From Telopea speciosissima (taxonomy: Eukaryota > Streptophyta > Magnoliopsida > Proteales > Proteaceae), in the NCBI RefSeq assembly GCF_018873765.1, contig NC_057923.1, forward strand, positions 56,042,593-56,106,592: a stretch of DNA of 64,000 nt. Reading direction: 5' to 3'. The notes beneath the pieces are model-generated. The model did no database searches and had not been told where the DNA came from. It was given only the letters and a program-made list of their open reading frames with translations. The translations under genes and the position numbers were made by a program. Below are positions 30,801 to 42,800 of this stretch, one piece after another. Numbering within the stretch: the first letter of the stretch is position 1; every line of letters starts with the position of its first letter.

Positions 30801-33800
30801 GACCAATCTTGAAGGTTTGCCAATATCATAAGGAAAATAGAGCATTGGGCTTCATAAATGAACCGCTGGTTCCAATGGAAGTCAAGGTCAGCGAATGAGT
30901 TGACAGATCTTCTAGCTAAGCAAGGAGTGGTTAGGCCAAGAAGGTATGAGGTAAGGGATTATCTGTTGTAATTTTTTTGTTGTTTCTGTTTGGGACCTTT
31001 GTAGGGTTGCTTGCTTTGTCTCTTTGTTTTGGTTGTGGCTGTCTTTGATGAATAATGCAGAATCAATCTCAAACAAATAAAACTAGCAAAATATCATTCA
31101 TGACAGGATCGAATATAGGGACAATCCATTAATAAAAAAGGCATACCCAGTGCACAAGGCTCCCGCCCCTGCGGGGTCTGGGAAGGGTCATAATGTATGC
31201 AGCCTTACCCCTGCTTTCGCAGAGATGCTGTTTCCAGACTCGAACCCGTGACCACTTGATCACAATGAGAACATAATTATCTCACACTTTTTTTAATATA
31301 TGAGAGAACAAAGAAGGATACAAACTAGACCTCCCAACTACAACTCGACTAGCACCTCACCAGTCCAAAACAAGACATCTTACCAAGCAACCAAGCATCT
31401 CACTAGGCTCCACTGCATATCATAGTTGTCACGATGTCTAGGCAACCCAAGGCGCCTGGAAACCTTGACAACTATGCTACATATCACAGCTATTAGCATA
31501 GAACCAGAAATTTCATTGCAACTTCTTTAACTTCTTCAAAACACTTGCAATCAGCTCTTTTTATATAGGTTGGGAGGGTTCTAGACTCTCATTGGAACTT
31601 CCTCCTAAACTTAATGGCCTGTACATTTCCCAGAACTTACATTGGGACTCCTTTCAAGATATTTAATGAACCTTACATTTTCAAGGCCTTTCACAACTAA
31701 CAATGAAACTAACCTATTGACATCCCCAATACTTCACAAGTTCAAAGGACTAGATACAACTAACTAATTAAATTCGTATGGCCCACTTATCCCTCATATA
31801 TGAGCTGTTAAAATAGGACCATTACAATAGAAAACATGAAAATTTCAAGCCCATAACCCATTAGGCTACTACTTTAACCAATTAGACTAAAATTGGGCTT
31901 GTTCCGGCATGAATACTTGTGGTGGAACCTCTCTTGATCTAGATCAGCTCTCACCGACTTTAAAAAAACTCATCCACGAGTTTTGTAGTGACGACGGGAT
32001 AACAGCATGTGAGTAGCAGCTTTGACCTGTTCCAAACAATACTCTGATGATGTAGAGGCGTTAGGAATAAAATCTTCAACCCTAGGAACTTTCTCTTCAA
32101 AGTATTCGGGTGGAATGACAAACTCAATTTGTGCAATGTCACAATCATCATCAAGAGTAAAGCATGTACCCAGGTGGTCTCCCGTAACAGTATCGTCGAC
32201 TTCTTCACCATCCACTTCAGCTTCCATTGTAGAAGCAGCCGCCTTAGATTCCCCATCACTGTCTTCCTCAGTATTCTCTGTTGATGGAGCCAAACATAAA
32301 AAGTGACTGCCTTGTGCCACTGTACTGTCCTCATCATCAGCAGGTTGTTTTTCAACCTCCTCAGGAGGAAGTTCATCATATAACTCAGTCTCCGTATTGG
32401 CGTCAACGGCAACCACGATAGCATTCTCTGGGCATTGAGGGCAGAACTTAGCAAAGTGCCCATATTTGGCTTCAAACCTATATTTGATAGCAGTCATGCA
32501 ATCTAATAACTGCCTAATCATGTCAATGGTCTGATTGAAAATATTTGTTGGGTCAGAATTCCTTGAACAGGGTTTAGCCATAGCTCTAACACCAAATAAT
32601 GGAGACTCAATCTTGAACCAGTAAAACCAGTGAGATATCATTTCGAAACAGAATCGCATATAGGGACAAACTAAAATAATTTTCTAACCCCTTTTTTTTT
32701 TTACAAATGGGCGAAGAAAAAGAAAGATATGAAGGCCTACCACCCAGAACCTGACTAGCATCTCACAGCTATTGGCATAAAACCAGAAATTCCATTTAAC
32801 TTTTTTTAACTTCTTCAAAATGCTTACACTCAGCTCTTATTATAGAGAGGTTGGGAGGTTTTTAGACCCGCATTGGAACTTCATCCTAGACTTAATGGCC
32901 TGTACATTTCCCAGGACTTACATTGGGACTCTTTTCAAGATACTTAATGGACCATACATTTTCAAGGTCTTTCACAACTAACAATGACACTAACCTATAA
33001 CCCATTAGGCTAGTCATTTAACCCATTAGACTAGGATTTGAGCTTGTTCCGGCGAGAATACTTGTGCTAGAAACTCTCTTGATCCACATCAATGAAGGCA
33101 ATTGTACTCTCTTCTCTAATCTGTACCAATAAGTTTAGTCGATTAATGAGAGGAGATAATGAAATAAATAAGAGTATTTCTGTTCTCAAAAAGAAATAAG
33201 GGGTATTGATGCAGTTAAGACTGTCCAATTGGGTCAACTGGCCTTCAAAGACTTTATTTGGGCCCATGGTTGGGTTCTATAGACCTTAGGCTTCTTATTT
33301 TTGAGTTTATTGATGTAAATGGACCTAATTTATAAGCCTATAAAGTGGGGATAGTGTTAGTACACGGGATTAGTAGTTATATTGAGTGTTTTGAGTTTGA
33401 TTAGGATACTTAATAGATAGATAGAATTCTGTTTTGAGTTTATTTACTTTATTAAGTGTATTAGATTGATTAGGAATCCTTTTATGAGTCAAAGTAGGAA
33501 TTTTAGAAGGTCTATATATATGTAATACATCCCCCATCAATTAGAGATGATTTGAATAAAGAATGAGTTTTTTTTACAGAGTTTTGGTGCTGTTGAGCAG
33601 TGCTTACTGGATTGATGTCCCAAATCTGAAATCTTCTCTTCTCTTTTGTTTCTCTTCTTCTTTCTTCTTTCTCCCAAGAAGACCGATCTCATCTCTCATC
33701 CCTCCCCTTCCATCAATCTTATTTCTTCCCTTGACAACACAGTTGCTTCCTTTATCTCAGATTTGATTATTGGGCCTACTTGCATCTGAGATCCTTAATC

Positions 33801-36800
33801 TGGATTTTCAGATTGCATCAGGTATCATGAAATATTTTTGAAAGGGTGTCTCACAACTCTCACAACTTTCTTAATAACCTTTTGCAGGTGGAACTTATGC
33901 CATCCTTGAAGTATATGTGAGCTCAAACAGGAAACTAACAACTAACAAGCATTAGGGAAATGCTTCCACTTTTTTATAAATTCAAAATGCACAGGTTGAA
34001 ATAACCTCCATGTTAAAAGGTGAACCATAGGTTGACCTCAACACTTGCTTAGGTGTGTCTACCAACAGAACCAGTGCAGCACATGGCTGCAAAAATATTC
34101 CTTAGTCATCATTCTCCTCAACAACAAAGGATGCAGCCCAAATTTGCAGTGTAAATACACCCAATTCACAGGCACCTCATTAAGGCTAATACATGCGCTG
34201 CAATAAATACAGAAGGAATTGTATCTCTCAACAAGCCTCCAAAAATTAATGAAAATTAACATGTCTCCTTTCTTCGTCAGCAGTTCAATGATCAAGCATC
34301 TCAATTAATAACCAGAAGCAGAAGAGTAAAGACAAACTTAATTCCCAAACGAGTAATAAATCTATATCAAAGCATTTCCTATTTCAAGGCTAATAAAAAT
34401 GGGGAAGCCCTGACTAAACATTTGAGGCTACTAAAAACGAGGAAACAAGGCCTCAGAAAATAGAACACTAGTCTAAAATAATTTTAGATCCCTAGGAATT
34501 TCAAGACGCAAAGAAACAAACAGTAGTTATTGGCCAGAGAATTTGATGGAAAATCTTAACCCCCCCCCCACCCCAAGTACCATGAAGACCTTGAGGAAGT
34601 CTTCAAAAAAAAAAAGATAAGTAAACCAAAAAACTTCTGTGAATGAAATAGAAAAGTATGTTTATTCATAAGATTGTAACTATATTTGTTACAAACTCAA
34701 AATCATAATAAACAAATTAATGCCAATACCAATGACAATACTTTCTAAGGTTTCAGTTCGTCCAGCCGTATTCCAGCTTCGACCATAACCTTCTCAGGGT
34801 CTGCCTGAGGCAGCCTGGCCTCTTTTGCTAATTGGTCTGCTTCTTTATTGAGCTTTCGCGAGAGGAACCCTTCAGATAGCCAGGCTGACCTTTTAAAGGA
34901 TTGTTGAGTGTGGGACCCTGTTACAGCGAAGAAGAGTTTCGCCGAAGCTGGAAAACAACACTTAGTTCTTCAATCTAAGCTTAGCTTAATCTAAGCTTAA
35001 GCTAAGCTAAGCTAAGTACACTTGCTTATTCTTATTATATGATTGATAAAAGAAAATGGGTGTTTTCTTTTCTTTGCTGACAGTAATCAATCCTATTCTT
35101 GCACTAGGAGAAATTATATACAAGTGCTCAAATCTCGGGGGTATTAGAATGCCGATGAAAAGTAGATAACTCGAACAACAGCAAAACTGAGGAAAACATA
35201 ATACCTGATTGTTTGACACATTCTGGACAGCAACCACTCCAGTGTTGGGAGGTGCAAGAGGGCCCCAAAACATTGCGAGGCAGTGCATGTGTTCGGGAGT
35301 ATACTTGAGCATACGATGTCGTCCATTCCGGTCCTCAATGGCATAAACTGGTACAGTCTGGAAACGCCTCCAACCAATTGAGACAATGATTGGGTCTCTA
35401 GTCTTCAATACCTTCCTGTGCCATCTATGCCGCTTTAGCCTAACCTGAAAGCAGAGAACACAAAAACCGCCTTAGTACAATAACCAATGCAACGCGTAAT
35501 ATACCTGTTTCATTTCACATTAAACCTCTCTCCCGCCAACTTCCCCAATAGCAGTACCCCCCATGCATAATATACATGTTTCATTTCATATTAAACCTCT
35601 CTCTTTCTCCGCAACTAACCCCCTCCCCCCCCCCCCCAAAAAAAGGAAACCTACATTACTGTACACTTCAAAATGGGACCAGCATCTAATACTTCACTTT
35701 AAGCATGGCTGCAAGGAAGCGTGGTACAGGGTGGAAGGTACCACTTTTGCTTCTCGCACCTCTTATATTCTAAATCTTTATTTTGTTCAATGTAGACGCT
35801 TCTCACATCTTGCTTCCATTCCATTTCACTCTGGTATTATCTCCCTTATTTTCTAGAACTTGTATTACCTCAACACGCACATCTGACATTTCAACTTCAC
35901 AAATAACGGCAGGAAGCTCAGTCCAAGGCGGGGAAGCTACCAATTCTTGCTTATTGTGTTCAAATATTTCAATTAGGCATCATCCCCATAACTTGTGTAA
36001 ACTGTCATTCATGTCTAGTACTTCCCTCTTAAGAATAGTTTCAAGAAGCTTGGTTCAAGGTGGCAGCTACTGCTCACAGTTTCGACTAAACCCCTGTACT
36101 AACTTCACCCTCATTTTATGGACACACCCTAATGTAGTCCTAGATAGGTAGGAGACCTACTAGGAGCCAGACAACCAGGACCTGTTGAGCTGCTGGTTCG
36201 ATGGGGGCAGAATTGAGGTTTTAGGTCAAATTTAGGGTTAGGATTAGGTCAATGAAGATGTATCTTATATGGTAAAGCTAGGCAGGTGTAGGGGAGTCTA
36301 ATGAACTATGTTTTTGGCTTTGGGATGAGTAGAAGTAGGATAGATGGATTTGGGCAGCAACTAGGATTAGGGTTTTGAAAGGGGAAAGATGAGAGAATCT
36401 AGGGTTATAATAACAGGAATCCAGGTGGTTGAATGGGCCGAATATTTAGGTCAAGTGTGGGTAGGGTGGAGAGGAATACATGCTGAAATTTACAGCTAAA
36501 TCAAATGGTTAGATATGGAATTATGGAGGTTTCTTAGTAGAAGTAGGAGAGAGGGGTAAAAGTGTAGTTTCAGACAATCGGCTGAGTGGATGGTGCTGAA
36601 ATTTGAATCAAGTCTCTCTTAGGGTTTGAGGAAGATTCGATCAAATTTAGCAGGTTCTAACGATTAGATTGGGCTGGGTAGAATTCTCTCGAAAATCACC
36701 TTGTATGTGACCTTCTAGAAGGGAAGCAAAATAGTTGCAGGTTTTAGGGTTCCAATGGATCTATGGTATTAATGGTGGATGAGGAAGGTAGTAAGGATTG

Positions 36801-39800
36801 AGTATTGAAAATGGGGATCGATGGGGTTGGGTTTAGAGGATTAGGAGAAGAAGGGGATGACTAATAACAATAACAACTTACTTGGTAAGGCAGGTCTTCA
36901 ATGGCAGTAGCTTGAAGACTAGAAGCAGGTCCTCCCGATCTACAAGATGCAAGGAGTCGATTGGAGATCCACCAATCCCTTAAAACAGATCCTTCTTGTC
37001 TACAAGACGCAAGGAGTCAACTAGAGATCCACCAATCCTTTCACCTTGATATTACTCACAAGGCAACACTCAATAGAGCAAAACAGCAGCAGCAATGGCA
37101 GCAAGCAAAAGCTAATTTTATTAATCAAATTTGAGTTCAAGGTTTGCCCCCTTACCATAGTTGTCACGGCAATCCAAGTCGGTGGAGGGGTGTTTGATCG
37201 ATATATCGATACGTTGCCCGCCATGGCATTGCCATGGCGATCATGTCGACCATGGCAGAATTGTAATTAAATCCAAAGTTGAATGGCAAAGTTGAATGGC
37301 AAACTAGTAGATAAATCAAGATTTAAAAGAGCAATGGCAGAATTGAAATTAATCTGAAGTCGTAAAGAAGGAGTGGCAGAACTGTAATTAATAGAAATCA
37401 ATTTAATAAAGAAAATAAACGAAGAAGTAGGATAGCACGTTTGATGGGTAAAGGGTATACTTGGAACAAAATGGAAAATAATAGATGGTGGGAATAAAAG
37501 TAAAAGAAAAGGGTAATGTTGGGAACTAAGGAAAATGGGTTTAATAGATAAGAAATAGACAAACAAAAAACAAAGGAATTCAGTTTTCTTCAACCTCACG
37601 ACTCCTCAGCTAAAGAAGGAACCATAACCCAGTGGCAGAATGGAAGTTATTTCGAAGGTGGGCCTTCCTCGTAAGAACACAATTGATACGAAGCTTCAGG
37701 CAAGAATCACCAAAACCTGTTCTCTCAAGGGCACCAAAAATCTAATTGAAAGAACTTGCAACCAAGAGATCGATGGAACTAAACCAAATCTGATGGTAGT
37801 AATGGAGGTGCAGGTCTGACGTGCGATGGAGCCTCAATGTTGAAAGGGGCTGAGCCAAAGGTTTGGAAGGATGAATCGCCCAGACCTACGAGAAATAGCC
37901 CCAAAATTCTGCTGGCAACCGAATGGTGAGAGCAAAGCTAAAATAGGAGATTTAGGGAAACAGACGCCATGGCGTAGGTCGATATGGCCATTTCTCCAAC
38001 GCCAGGACGCCATGACAACTATGCCCCTTACAACCGTATATAAAAGACTCAAAATTAGACTCATATACTAAAAAGGAAAAGCTTAACCCAATCCTTAACC
38101 TATAGGAACTTAAATTGACTAGGAAACTAAAATAGACTCAAAATAGAGTCCTAATCCAGCCCAACTTAAATACTTAAAAGAAAACTAATAAAATCACTTA
38201 AATTGAACCATTGGTTCAAACCAGCTTTGGACCGGTTCAATTTAGAACATTAAAAAACATGAAAATAAAATCAAGTATAGGACTAAAACATCTAAACCCG
38301 TATGCAACCTAATTACCCATATTTTAGGCCCATAAAAGTGCCCTATTACATAGAAAACCCATGGGATCAAAGGTCCAACATGTATATAACTCAACCCTAG
38401 ACTTATTCCTAATAAAATAAGCTCATTTCAGTGATGAATCTGCATCACACCCTTTATAATGAAACTAAAGAAAATAAAAGGCCAAACCTATAACATAACT
38501 ACCCAAAGCTTGTTTTCAGTCCATGGGACTGCTGCCACCAGCACCATGTGGACAGAATTCAAGCCTACATTGATCCAACCAGTCTAATGCAACTGCATCA
38601 GAATTCAAGATTGCTACGGTCTAAGGCCTACAATGTTGGGGATATCAATGGCTGACTGGTCTGTGAGATCTAAAACACTGAACACACCTGTTGTTTCTTT
38701 AGAAATAAGGAAAACAGTGTTAGTTGCAGCCAGATTGTAATTCTTTAAGTATTTTTAAAAAAAAAAAAAACTAAATAATCAAGAAGTTTTAGAAGTCATT
38801 TTCTATCTTTATAATTACTCCAGTAAGTTCGCATTTTACACCACCAACTTTCACCCATGCATGTGCAAATAGCACATTCAATTTTATCATTTCTGATGTG
38901 AATTTTTTTCCATACAATTAGCACAAACAAACCTGCATGTATCCGACATTTTCCTCCCCAAGACCAATGCCTCCAACCAGAATAGGATGACAGGGGTCAA
39001 AATGCTCAACCATCTCAAAAGGGACATTGTGGACCTCCAACCTCAAGTAAGTTCCAGTTCTGAAACCCTCTATCTCTAATCGAGCGGCCTCATCAAGATC
39101 ATTGAGTTCGGCTATATTGATCTGTTTCCGGAGTTCAGCCTCTTCCTTCAACTGCAAAATCCATCACTGAGCTCATAAGCATCTCGAACTCAAGAAAAAT
39201 GCAAGGTTAAAACAAAGTAGCCAATATACTTTGTCAAAGTATCCACCATCATTTGCTTCACTTCCGTGGAGCTTAGAACCACTCTTTTCATCAGCTTCCT
39301 CATCTGGTGGCTCCGATACTTCATATGTAGACTCATGTTAAGGTTGCACAAGCTATGAGAGAAGATTTAAAACTACAATCACAAAATAATCCACACACTG
39401 AGACCATGGTGGCTCTTATGAGATCAAACTGCAGAAAAATGTTTACAATTTCTGCCACCAACAAATAATGCAGGCCCAGTCCAAAAATTGGTCCTATTTT
39501 AATAACTATGGAGTACTGATTTTTAATCTGTGTTGTACTTGTAATGGGCAGAATTTTAAGGCCCAAAAGTGAAGGCCTAAAGAGATGTGCGAAAATAGAT
39601 ATTTAATTAGTAGTGGGATCCATTAGGTAATGCAGTTGGACATAGTTTAATCATTTTTTTTTGGTGAATGTTGGACATAGTTTAATCATTAAAGAGTACT
39701 ATTTTGGTTAGTTGTGACTTGTGAGGCCCAAGTTATCTAGAAGACTTGGGCTTCAATAATTTTAATTAGTTAAGTATTAAAGAGTCCTTATTAGTTAAGT

Positions 39801-42800
39801 TAGTCTAGCTACCTAAGAGTTTAAGATTTAGGAAACTTTCTTTTGTTTTCTTAGAAATTTCCCTCCCCCCAATAATGATGGTTAAAGAAATAGAATTAAG
39901 AGCTTGAGTTTCAAATGTGTAGCCAAAAAGGCTCTCTTTTCCCTTTTTATCTCCCCTATCCCTCTATTCTCTCTCTTCCTTTTCTTCAGTTACTATTCAT
40001 GGGTATTGTTCACAGTCCCAGAACAGCCTCTATCTCCTCTTCTTTCTCTCTTTCTTTCCCAATAACAGGCTACTGAAACCAACAAATCAGCAAGCCTTTT
40101 CAAACTCTATTTTATCAGGAAAATAGTTCAGATCTGGAACTGTAGAGCAGCTGATATAATCTTTGAATCCTAATCTGGAATCTAGGGTGGTTGGCTGCAT
40201 CAATAGAACTTTGAAAACTGACAGCAGCGCAGCTGATCTAATCTTTGAATCTTAATCTGGAATCTAGGTTGGTCGGCTGCATCTATAAAAATTCGAAAAC
40301 ATAATTAGAATACAGAATAAAAGAGAACACTACAAAGGGAAAAAGGATATTGAGCATCAAATTTTGCACGAAGCGCAAGCTTTTTAAGCCTCCTCTCCTC
40401 ATTTGCTTGATCATCATTATTTTGGCTTCTAGAACCTACATTGTTTGTCTGATGGCTTTCATTCTTCTCTCCTGTTTCTAAATCTTCAAAGTCACCAGAG
40501 ACATCATCATCATCATCTTCACTGTCATCATCTGAGGCTTGACCTCTTCGAGCAGCCTTTGACCAATCACCAGTAACAAAACGATCACGAATACTTTCAA
40601 TAATTTCTTCATTTTTCCAGTTTTTGAGTTTTCCATGATTTGTGAATTTGGAGCAGTCCTCTCCATTGGCATCGTAACTGTCCAACTCTTCACTTTTCTG
40701 TAGTTCATATCAGAGCAGGAAAAAATTGCAGAAGACATAAGTTTTGCTCCATCAAAGTCCGATTTATAAACTAGATCTAGGAAGGCAAAAAGAATTCATC
40801 CATAAGACTGAACAGGAAAAGAGCAACAAAAGAAGACATTTGAACAATATGAGTAACTTTTAGAAAGTACCTTGTTAGCCTCTCCTTTTGGCCTGAAGAA
40901 GTCATCGTCCTCGCTTTCTTCATCCTCACTACTAGCCTGCTCTTCATGAATAGATGTTACTGACTCCAATGTAGACTTTCCATAAACAAGTTGCATGAGA
41001 TTGGTACTCTGTCTCATGGCAGTTCTTTCTTTCAAAGATTCTCTCCACTTTGAAGCATTTCCTGCCTCTTCTATAAGGATAATGAGAAAATAAAGAGGAA
41101 ATAAGGACATTTTCAGAACAAACAGAAATTCATGAATATAATGCACATTAGAAGTGAAAGAATTTCCTAAAAAGCAAAACATAAGGATAACTTTCTTCAT
41201 TACAATTTGCAATAACCAGTCCTAACTCATTCCTGGTTCAATTGATTCTATTGACAAAACTACAAAAGCATATGATCCATTAGCAGCTACTAAGTTGTAA
41301 CTAATGGTTAGAGAAAAAAGACTGACTATTTCCCAACACCCATATAAGAGTACTGACATTTAATTAATGAAGTGAAATTCTACCTTCAGTTTGGTGGTCC
41401 TCCTCATCTTCCACAGCAAAATCTGAACTAGCAGATGACTTGCTATCCATATCATCTTCCTCATCCTCATCAGAATCCTATCATTAAGGGAATAGTGTGA
41501 ACATGATTATATGCCACAACAAAAAAACTGCTTTAGAATTTTAGTTAAAACCTTGTTTTTATTGGAAAAATATACATCGCATCCAGTATTAACCTTTTAG
41601 AACATAAATAATCTTTAAAAAATCATAAATATTAATTGACCATACACATAAAAGTTTAACAAACTTCTTTTTCAGGTGTGCACAGATGTAGTTTCATTAA
41701 GAATGTAATCACATGCCTAAGTTTGGAAATCCCATATCGGCAAATGGCAAGTAGAGTTCTTAACAGCAGTGCATACACAGCAAAATTCCAGATTTTAAAG
41801 ACAACGTAACTAGATGTTATGAAACCTATTTTAAAAGGTAAAATTAGCAAGGTGTGGTGTTACCTTTACCAAGAAATTATGGCATTTCCTTTAATTATAT
41901 GGATATGTTACACAACAAATTCAGTAACTTGCTTCTAAAGGAATGAGAAGATCCAATATGCCAAACCATGAACCGGATAGCGGAGAGATTTAGACCAAAC
42001 ACTCATTAGCATCTTCGACTGATTTATCTACCATTCTGCTATTAAGCCAATACAGATCATATGAAGGGCTCAAAAGACAGCTTTTTATGAAACGACACTG
42101 CAGTCGAGATAATGAAATAGTTCTATGACCAATCATTAGGTAGCAGAAATCATGCATGATGCGTGCACAACATATTCATTAATATTACAACAAATTAAGA
42201 GAGTGATTAAGAGAAAGAGAGAGTTCTTATAGTACTCTCTAAGGGTATTTTTCACCTCAGACCCCACAAATCACACAAAAGAAACATTATAATCCAAAAC
42301 TAATAACACACAAAAATCACAGGCAAACAGCTCTTTTTTCTTTTTCATTGTGTGTGTGGGTGGGGGGTTGGGGGGGGGGGGGGATGGGACAGAAATTAGG
42401 AATTGTAACCCAGAAGACATATTCGAATATTACCTTCAGATCGCCATCATGAACATCGTGAGCTGAGACAGCTTTTCTCCTCAGCCTTCCATTGTGAAAC
42501 TCAATTTTTTCTTCAAAATCACAATTTGGTGTAGGTTGCTGCTCTTTATCTCCATCTCCTTCCCACTCATCGTCATCTTCTTCATCAGAATCATTATCCT
42601 CATTTTCAGCAACTACATGTTTTTCCCCTGATTTATCTTGCTCTGAAGATTCAGAGATACTGTCAGTATCAATAGTTCCATCTTCCCCTGATTCAGCTTT
42701 CTCAGAAGCAAATGGGCCATCCATATGCACCATATCCTCAACACAATCTTCAGAATAAGATGCCTTTGCATCACCCTTATCTTCTGCTGAAACAGGAGGT

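Follow-up and report, generated by a model that had tools for sequence, protein, structure and literature searches.

The window analysed here is a 64,000-nucleotide (nt) stretch of the Telopea speciosissima genome (RefSeq assembly GCF_018873765.1, contig NC_057923.1, forward-strand positions 56,042,593 to 56,106,592). It carries on its minus strand a gene for BMS1, a GTPase and factor of the small-subunit processome, and the subject of this report is the eleventh intron of that gene, which begins with AT and ends with AC and is very probably a U12-type intron, removed by the minor spliceosome. The coding sequence runs from 45821 to 27874 and comprises 3660 bases, with 17 introns and no internal stop (Table 1). 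According to the PDB search, the 1219-residue product matches BMS1 chains best (E 2.8e-302), with a long match to the human and fungal chains, whereas TSR1 chains are matched more weakly (best 3.5e-28). AARP2CN or RIBIOP_C of Pfam was found on three of the ten single open frames scanned in the window.

Table 1. Features of BMS1 intron 11 and its surroundings (window positions), with one candidate gene elsewhere in the genome
Feature	Position	Strand	Basis or remark
BMS1 gene, coding span, 18 exons, 1219 residues	27874..45821	-	exon model read by eye, no internal stop
Exon 11	40351..40697	-	ends ...AKFDA, followed by bases 1 and 2 of a glutamine codon (phase 2)
Intron 11, AT-AC, very probably U12-type, 1024 nt, phase 2	39327..40350	-	exon model; kept in the duplicate gene
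U12-type 5' splice site ATATCCTTTTT	40340..40350	-	9/9 to RTATCCTTT; predicted pairing with the genome's own U11 and U6atac
82-bp tandem duplication, two copies 86% identical	40139..40300	.	spans the edge between host and long terminal repeat (LTR)
Antisense LTR-type insertion, including 82-bp tandem duplication	39466..40284	-	repeat matches and boundaries
Branch-site motif AACCTTAAC, 10 nt before intron end	39337..39345	-	predicted pairing with U12
3' splice site TCTAC	39327..39331	-	no pyrimidine tract after the branch site
Exon 12	39230..39326	-	exon model
Putative divergent plant U4atac gene	L061 1501-1647	-	sub-threshold; exact promoter element at -80, TATA at -35

Intron 11 and the two BMS1 genes

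Intron 11 interrupts the protein at residue 751 of 1219. With a slash for each splice point, the junction reads ...GATGCTCA/ATATCCTTTTTCCC at the donor and GCAACCTTAACATGAGTCTAC/ATATGAAG... at the acceptor. All of the other 16 introns are GT-AG, so that AT-AC ends occur in intron 11 only. A first-pass annotation, made from the letters of the window, had placed an AT-AC intron of BMS1 with a TCTAC terminus here. Its coordinates are exact in the 18-exon model, the ends are seen as it described them, and splicing at these sites gives the open frame that matches BMS1 in the PDB.

A search of the genome with the whole intron gave a second full-length match (82%) on another contig (C2, intron at 65930602-65929558), and this match belongs to a second BMS1 gene, for which 18 of 18 exons were found and which encodes 1217 residues with one stop, the terminal one. 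The AT and AC ends thus keep the reading frame open in both genes. In the alignment of the two copies, 1165 of 1217 residues are identical, with dS 0.089, dN 0.019 and dN/dS 0.21. The common introns and the common upstream sequence show that BMS1 was duplicated at the DNA level. The genome has 14 RIBIOP_C matches, none of which marks a third BMS1; the loci left over, on C3 and C4, we take for TSR1.

Two further sources of information about the junction were tried and set aside. A U12 position shared with the deep paralogue was considered at the one TSR1-like locus read, on C4, but its nearest intron is GT-AG and of phase 1 (by eye), and no such position was seen there. A processed copy that might serve as a fossil cDNA was also sought; the junction-spanning protein matched only the two BMS1 genes, exon by exon (six matches), and the extra matches of the other junction search (five of seven) lie in intron-derived sequence, beyond the query's exon portion. 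An alignment by eye places FDAQY/E against FDAEYDEGESTYFD of human BMS1. HMMER aligned this stretch to later residues, and the protein homology at the junction is therefore given little weight.

Splice signals and the spliceosome that would read them

The 5' end ATATCCTTT scores 9/9 against RTATCCTTT in both BMS1 copies, and the 5' sites of all other introns of the two copies score at most 7/9. TTCCTTRAY is a form of the U12 branch consensus in which either purine is allowed at R. Against it the branch motifs AACCTTAAC (window gene) and AACCTTGAC (duplicate) score 7/9, with the CCTTRAC core complete. The intron terminus consists of AACCTTAAC followed by ATGAGTCTAC, and ATGAGTCTAC shows no pyrimidine tract before exon 12. 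Ten bases stand between ACCTTAAC (39344-39337) and the intron end. The first-pass annotation was right in reading these as U12 consensus signals and close in setting the branch motif eleven to twelve bases from the end; the two candidate branch adenosines are actually the 13th and 12th bases counted from the end. The U12 consensus, as given in PMC2846911, has the 5' site RTATCCTTT, the branch site UCCUUAACU, AT-AC ends in some introns and no pyrimidine-rich region. PMC7367187 tabulates four plants, and AT-AC introns account for 13 to 26% of their U12-type introns; the end type here is therefore not exceptional.

The signals are retained in the duplicate, whose intron 11 starts with ATATCCTTTTCC, finishes with AACCTTGAC-ATGAGTCTAC and has AT-AC ends. 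Common to both copies are ATATCCTTTT, the motif CTTGTGCAACCTT followed by A or G and then ACATGAGTCTAC, and the insert described below. The A-to-G change in the branch motif of the duplicate sits where the consensus accepts either purine, and it makes the next A the only adenosine at the branch position of the motif. Between the copies, the 5' site is identical at 10 of 10 aligned bases (with one gap column) and the last 34 nt at 32; elsewhere the identities are 694/776 in the insert, 48/55 in the host sequence before it and 97/105 in that after it. The identity of the signals agrees with constraint, though with so few sites it is no proof.

Chance was estimated by first-order Markov simulation of the window, one strand. 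[AG]TATCCTT occurs at 51.5 per Mb and CCTT[AG]AC at 128 per Mb, and simple arithmetic from these frequencies gives a chance of roughly 1e-7 for both motifs being placed as they are, one at a fixed exon boundary and the other within about 15 bases of the 3' end. In the 823-Mb genome, the 5' 11-mer with a loose tail has 583 matches, some of them overlapping, and the reversed control pattern has 1193. The 11-mer by itself is thus not rare, and its weight comes from its position at the exon boundary.

The major spliceosome handles a small number of AT-AC introns, and intron 11 might have real AT-AC ends and belong to this group. Such U2-type AT-AC introns are tabulated as 0.01% of the U2-type introns of Arabidopsis (PMC7367187). 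U12 marks are seen in the perfect match to RTATCCTTT, in the distance of 10 nt between branch motif and intron end and in the lack of a pyrimidine tract, and we consider this explanation extremely improbable.

The other alternative is that the major spliceosome removes the intron through nearby GT-AG sites and that the AT-AC appearance is a coincidence. Donors and upstream acceptors within 120 nt of the window junction were therefore paired, and the pairs in frame and free of stops were listed. There are 90 such pairs (65 GT/GC-AG and 25 AT-AC), and some of the GT/GC-AG donors lie past the exon end; for 54 of the 90 the frame is open at the corresponding sites of the duplicate as well. The tests started from the pairs of the window gene, and pairs private to the duplicate lie outside the list. 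Among the window's GT-AG and GC-AG pairs with a donor past the exon end (within 120 nt), none is open in both copies, since a one-base length difference in a T run shifts their frames between the copies. The closest GT-AG pair in the window has its donor at +17 (GTAGTG) and its acceptor at ATGAAG/TAT, which lacks a pyrimidine tract. Donors inside exon 11 are a different case, because some of their GT/GC-AG pairs are open in both genes, but these would remove residues that both copies keep. Together with the perfect U12 5' consensus, these results make removal through GT-AG sites very improbable.

The genome encodes small nuclear RNAs (snRNAs) of the minor spliceosome. Above the Rfam cut-offs we found U12 (87.2 bits), two U11 loci (73.6 and 50.6 bits) and ten U6atac matches (best 91.3 bits). 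RTCCCACATCG is the plant snRNA promoter element. Among 12 loci checked, it is present exactly upstream of one of two U11 and four of eight U6atac loci (L056 is exact), and with two mismatches at the U12 locus. Possible pseudogenes are the second U11 locus and the remaining four U6atac loci, where the element has 4 or 5 mismatches. In duplex prediction, the pairing of the 5' site with U11 is equalled by 21 of 1000 shuffles and is the only notable one of the three pairings predicted.

Several observations weigh against a U12-type assignment. Introns 2, 8 and 16 reach 8/9 on TTCCTTRAY in at least one gene and so outscore intron 11, which means that the branch motif alone is not discriminating. 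Minor introns are biased to the 5' side of genes in many plants (PMC10639083), and intron 11 lies at residue 751 of 1219. The exon 11 donors open in both genes make alternative isoforms possible. Shuffles match the branch-site pairing with U12 in 105 of 1000 cases and the 5' site pairing with U6atac in 126 of 1000. U4atac was not found in the genome at E 0.001, and the best candidate at a looser limit has 33.9 bits (E 0.14) against the Rfam cut-off of 53; at that limit sub-threshold U4atac matches came up in 11 of 14 prokaryote controls too, so that the score of the candidate alone means little. In favour of the candidate are its exact promoter element and TATA (Table 1) and the pairing of its 5' part with U6atac, which 296 of 300 shuffles do not surpass. 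The zf-U11-48K profile, the one minor-spliceosome protein profile searched, had no match at E 0.001 in the 823 Mb, and 1 of 14 controls matched; this null is uninformative because the profile has only 25 positions and the genome is so large.

The U12-type reading nevertheless explains intron 11 best, owing to the consensus signals, the reading frame, the conservation in the duplicate and the minor snRNA genes in the same genome. In 5' site, ends, branch motif near the 3' end and lack of a pyrimidine tract the intron is like known U12-type AT-AC introns, and no difference in mechanism was seen.

Three side observations concern the same kinds of signal and gene. Intron 7 (window 43181-42907) has a U12-like 5' site, GTATCCATA, with 7/9, which is GTTTCCCTA in the duplicate gene; as its ends are GT-AG and its 3' region lacks a good branch motif, it is probably ordinary. 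A weak U6atac match, probably a pseudogene, lies about 31 kb past the right end of the window (G000:C8:56137873-56138013; 33.8 bits against a cut-off of 33). At L054, a U6atac gene (1501-1625) and a U1 gene (2063-2222) lie on the same strand, the U6atac gene some 440 bases upstream.

The insert and the order of events

The insert occupies intron positions of about 67-885, that is 819 of the 1024 nt, and starts about 66 nt from the 5' site. In gene orientation it ends near TGATGCAG...CTGCATTA, with the first base decayed in the BMS1 intron, and its flanks TTTAT and TTTGT (4/5) are a possible decayed target duplication. The 82-bp tandem repeat starts about 51 nt into the intron. The dispersed repeat (intron positions about 149-885) has at least 57 matches in the genome, two of which are the BMS1 introns and 55 further copies. 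According to the termini at 18 loci examined, most copies begin at intron position 146-149, and eight reach 883-888. Among the 14 copies shown, those at L012 and L017 begin with TGATGCAG and end with CTGCATTA exactly in gene orientation, and the others have variant ends or are shorter. An exact 5-bp target-site duplication (AGAAG) flanks the copy at L017, and 4/5 duplications those at L012 and L027; none was found at L014, L015 and L016. Read in reverse, GATACCAAG and AATACCAAG correspond to a primer-binding site of the initiator tRNA-Met type. One or the other flanks 3 of the 14 copies (L015, L019 and L025) in a primer-site-like position.

The first-pass annotation had reported about 800 bases of LTR-like and tandem-repeat sequence some 50 bases from the 5' site. 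The insert is real, and 'LTR-like' was a reasonable term for it in view of these flanks and of the one exact target duplication among the 14 copies. Judged by the repeat features, we take the insert for a decayed antisense LTR remnant, probably a solo LTR. It shares with plant solo-LTR-type remnants the dispersed repeat and the short inverted ends, with an exact target duplication in one and a primer-site-like flank in three of the 14 copies, and differs in being decayed and antisense and in carrying an added tandem duplication.

The 82-bp duplication covers the last host bases and the first LTR bases, and it is therefore later than the insertion; its host-derived part is missing from the flanks of the other copies shown. 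Since insertion and tandem duplication are common to both BMS1 genes, both predate the duplication of BMS1. Subtraction of both gives an insert-free form of about 205 nt. The intron is now longer than this form, which is the only difference noted from known U12-type AT-AC introns.

The insertion might weaken splicing or add a layer of regulation: premature transcript ends or silencing at the antisense LTR would then turn the intron into a switch that controls BMS1. This would be compatible with a U12-type intron, and the size of the insert and its closeness to the 5' site speak for it. Against it, the insertion is old and is common to two intact genes under constraint, and we consider such a switch unlikely. 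The statement in the first-pass annotation that the intron tolerates insertions holds in so far as both genes stayed intact (dN/dS about 0.21).

Other introns also differ in length between the copies. Introns 13 (38932-35445) and 14 (35204-29656) have 3488 and 5549 nt in the window gene, and 1559 and 4880 nt in the duplicate. Intron 14 contains two unexplained open frames on the same strand, 31970-32683 (237 residues) and 34745-34969 (74 residues), the latter having no PDB or Pfam match. In the duplicate (L037/L038), an insertion of about 5.3 kb particular to that copy has brought intron 5 to 5493 nt; the window gene has 156 nt there.

Proposed mechanism and meaning

We propose that U11 and then U6atac would recognise ATATCCTTTT, and that U12 would pair with the branch-site motif, leaving the adenosine before C (39338) as the branch point. 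Two-step removal of the intron would then join CA/A of the glutamine codon. An LTR-type element entered antisense near the 5' site and the tandem duplication arose later across its edge, both before BMS1 was duplicated, while the U12 signals outside the insert stayed intact.

Both BMS1 copies probably need the minor spliceosome for the full-length protein. The first-pass annotation had suggested this dependence, and it gains weight from the second intact gene with the same intron and from the lack of a third among the RIBIOP_C matches. We regard it as quite improbable that the intron, with the large antisense LTR inside it, is kept in both copies because slow U12 splicing tunes 40S assembly to the activity of the minor spliceosome, as a regulatory switch for ribosome production.

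Literature searches pairing BMS1 or AT1G06720, which we take to be the Arabidopsis BMS1, with U12 gave no paper, the searches covering neither supplements nor intron databases; intron 11 may well be listed there. It is a well-formed, ordinary member of a known intron class, with an old insertion. As U12-type introns are already well described in plants, the significance is modest. The analysis adds a second BMS1 gene that has this intron, and it puts the events in the insert in order. The duplicate pair is a natural record of the bases of a U12 intron being held while the LTR and much else drift. Should splicing proceed as predicted, both genes would make their full-length BMS1 by way of the minor spliceosome, and ribosome assembly in this plant would be tied to U12 splicing.

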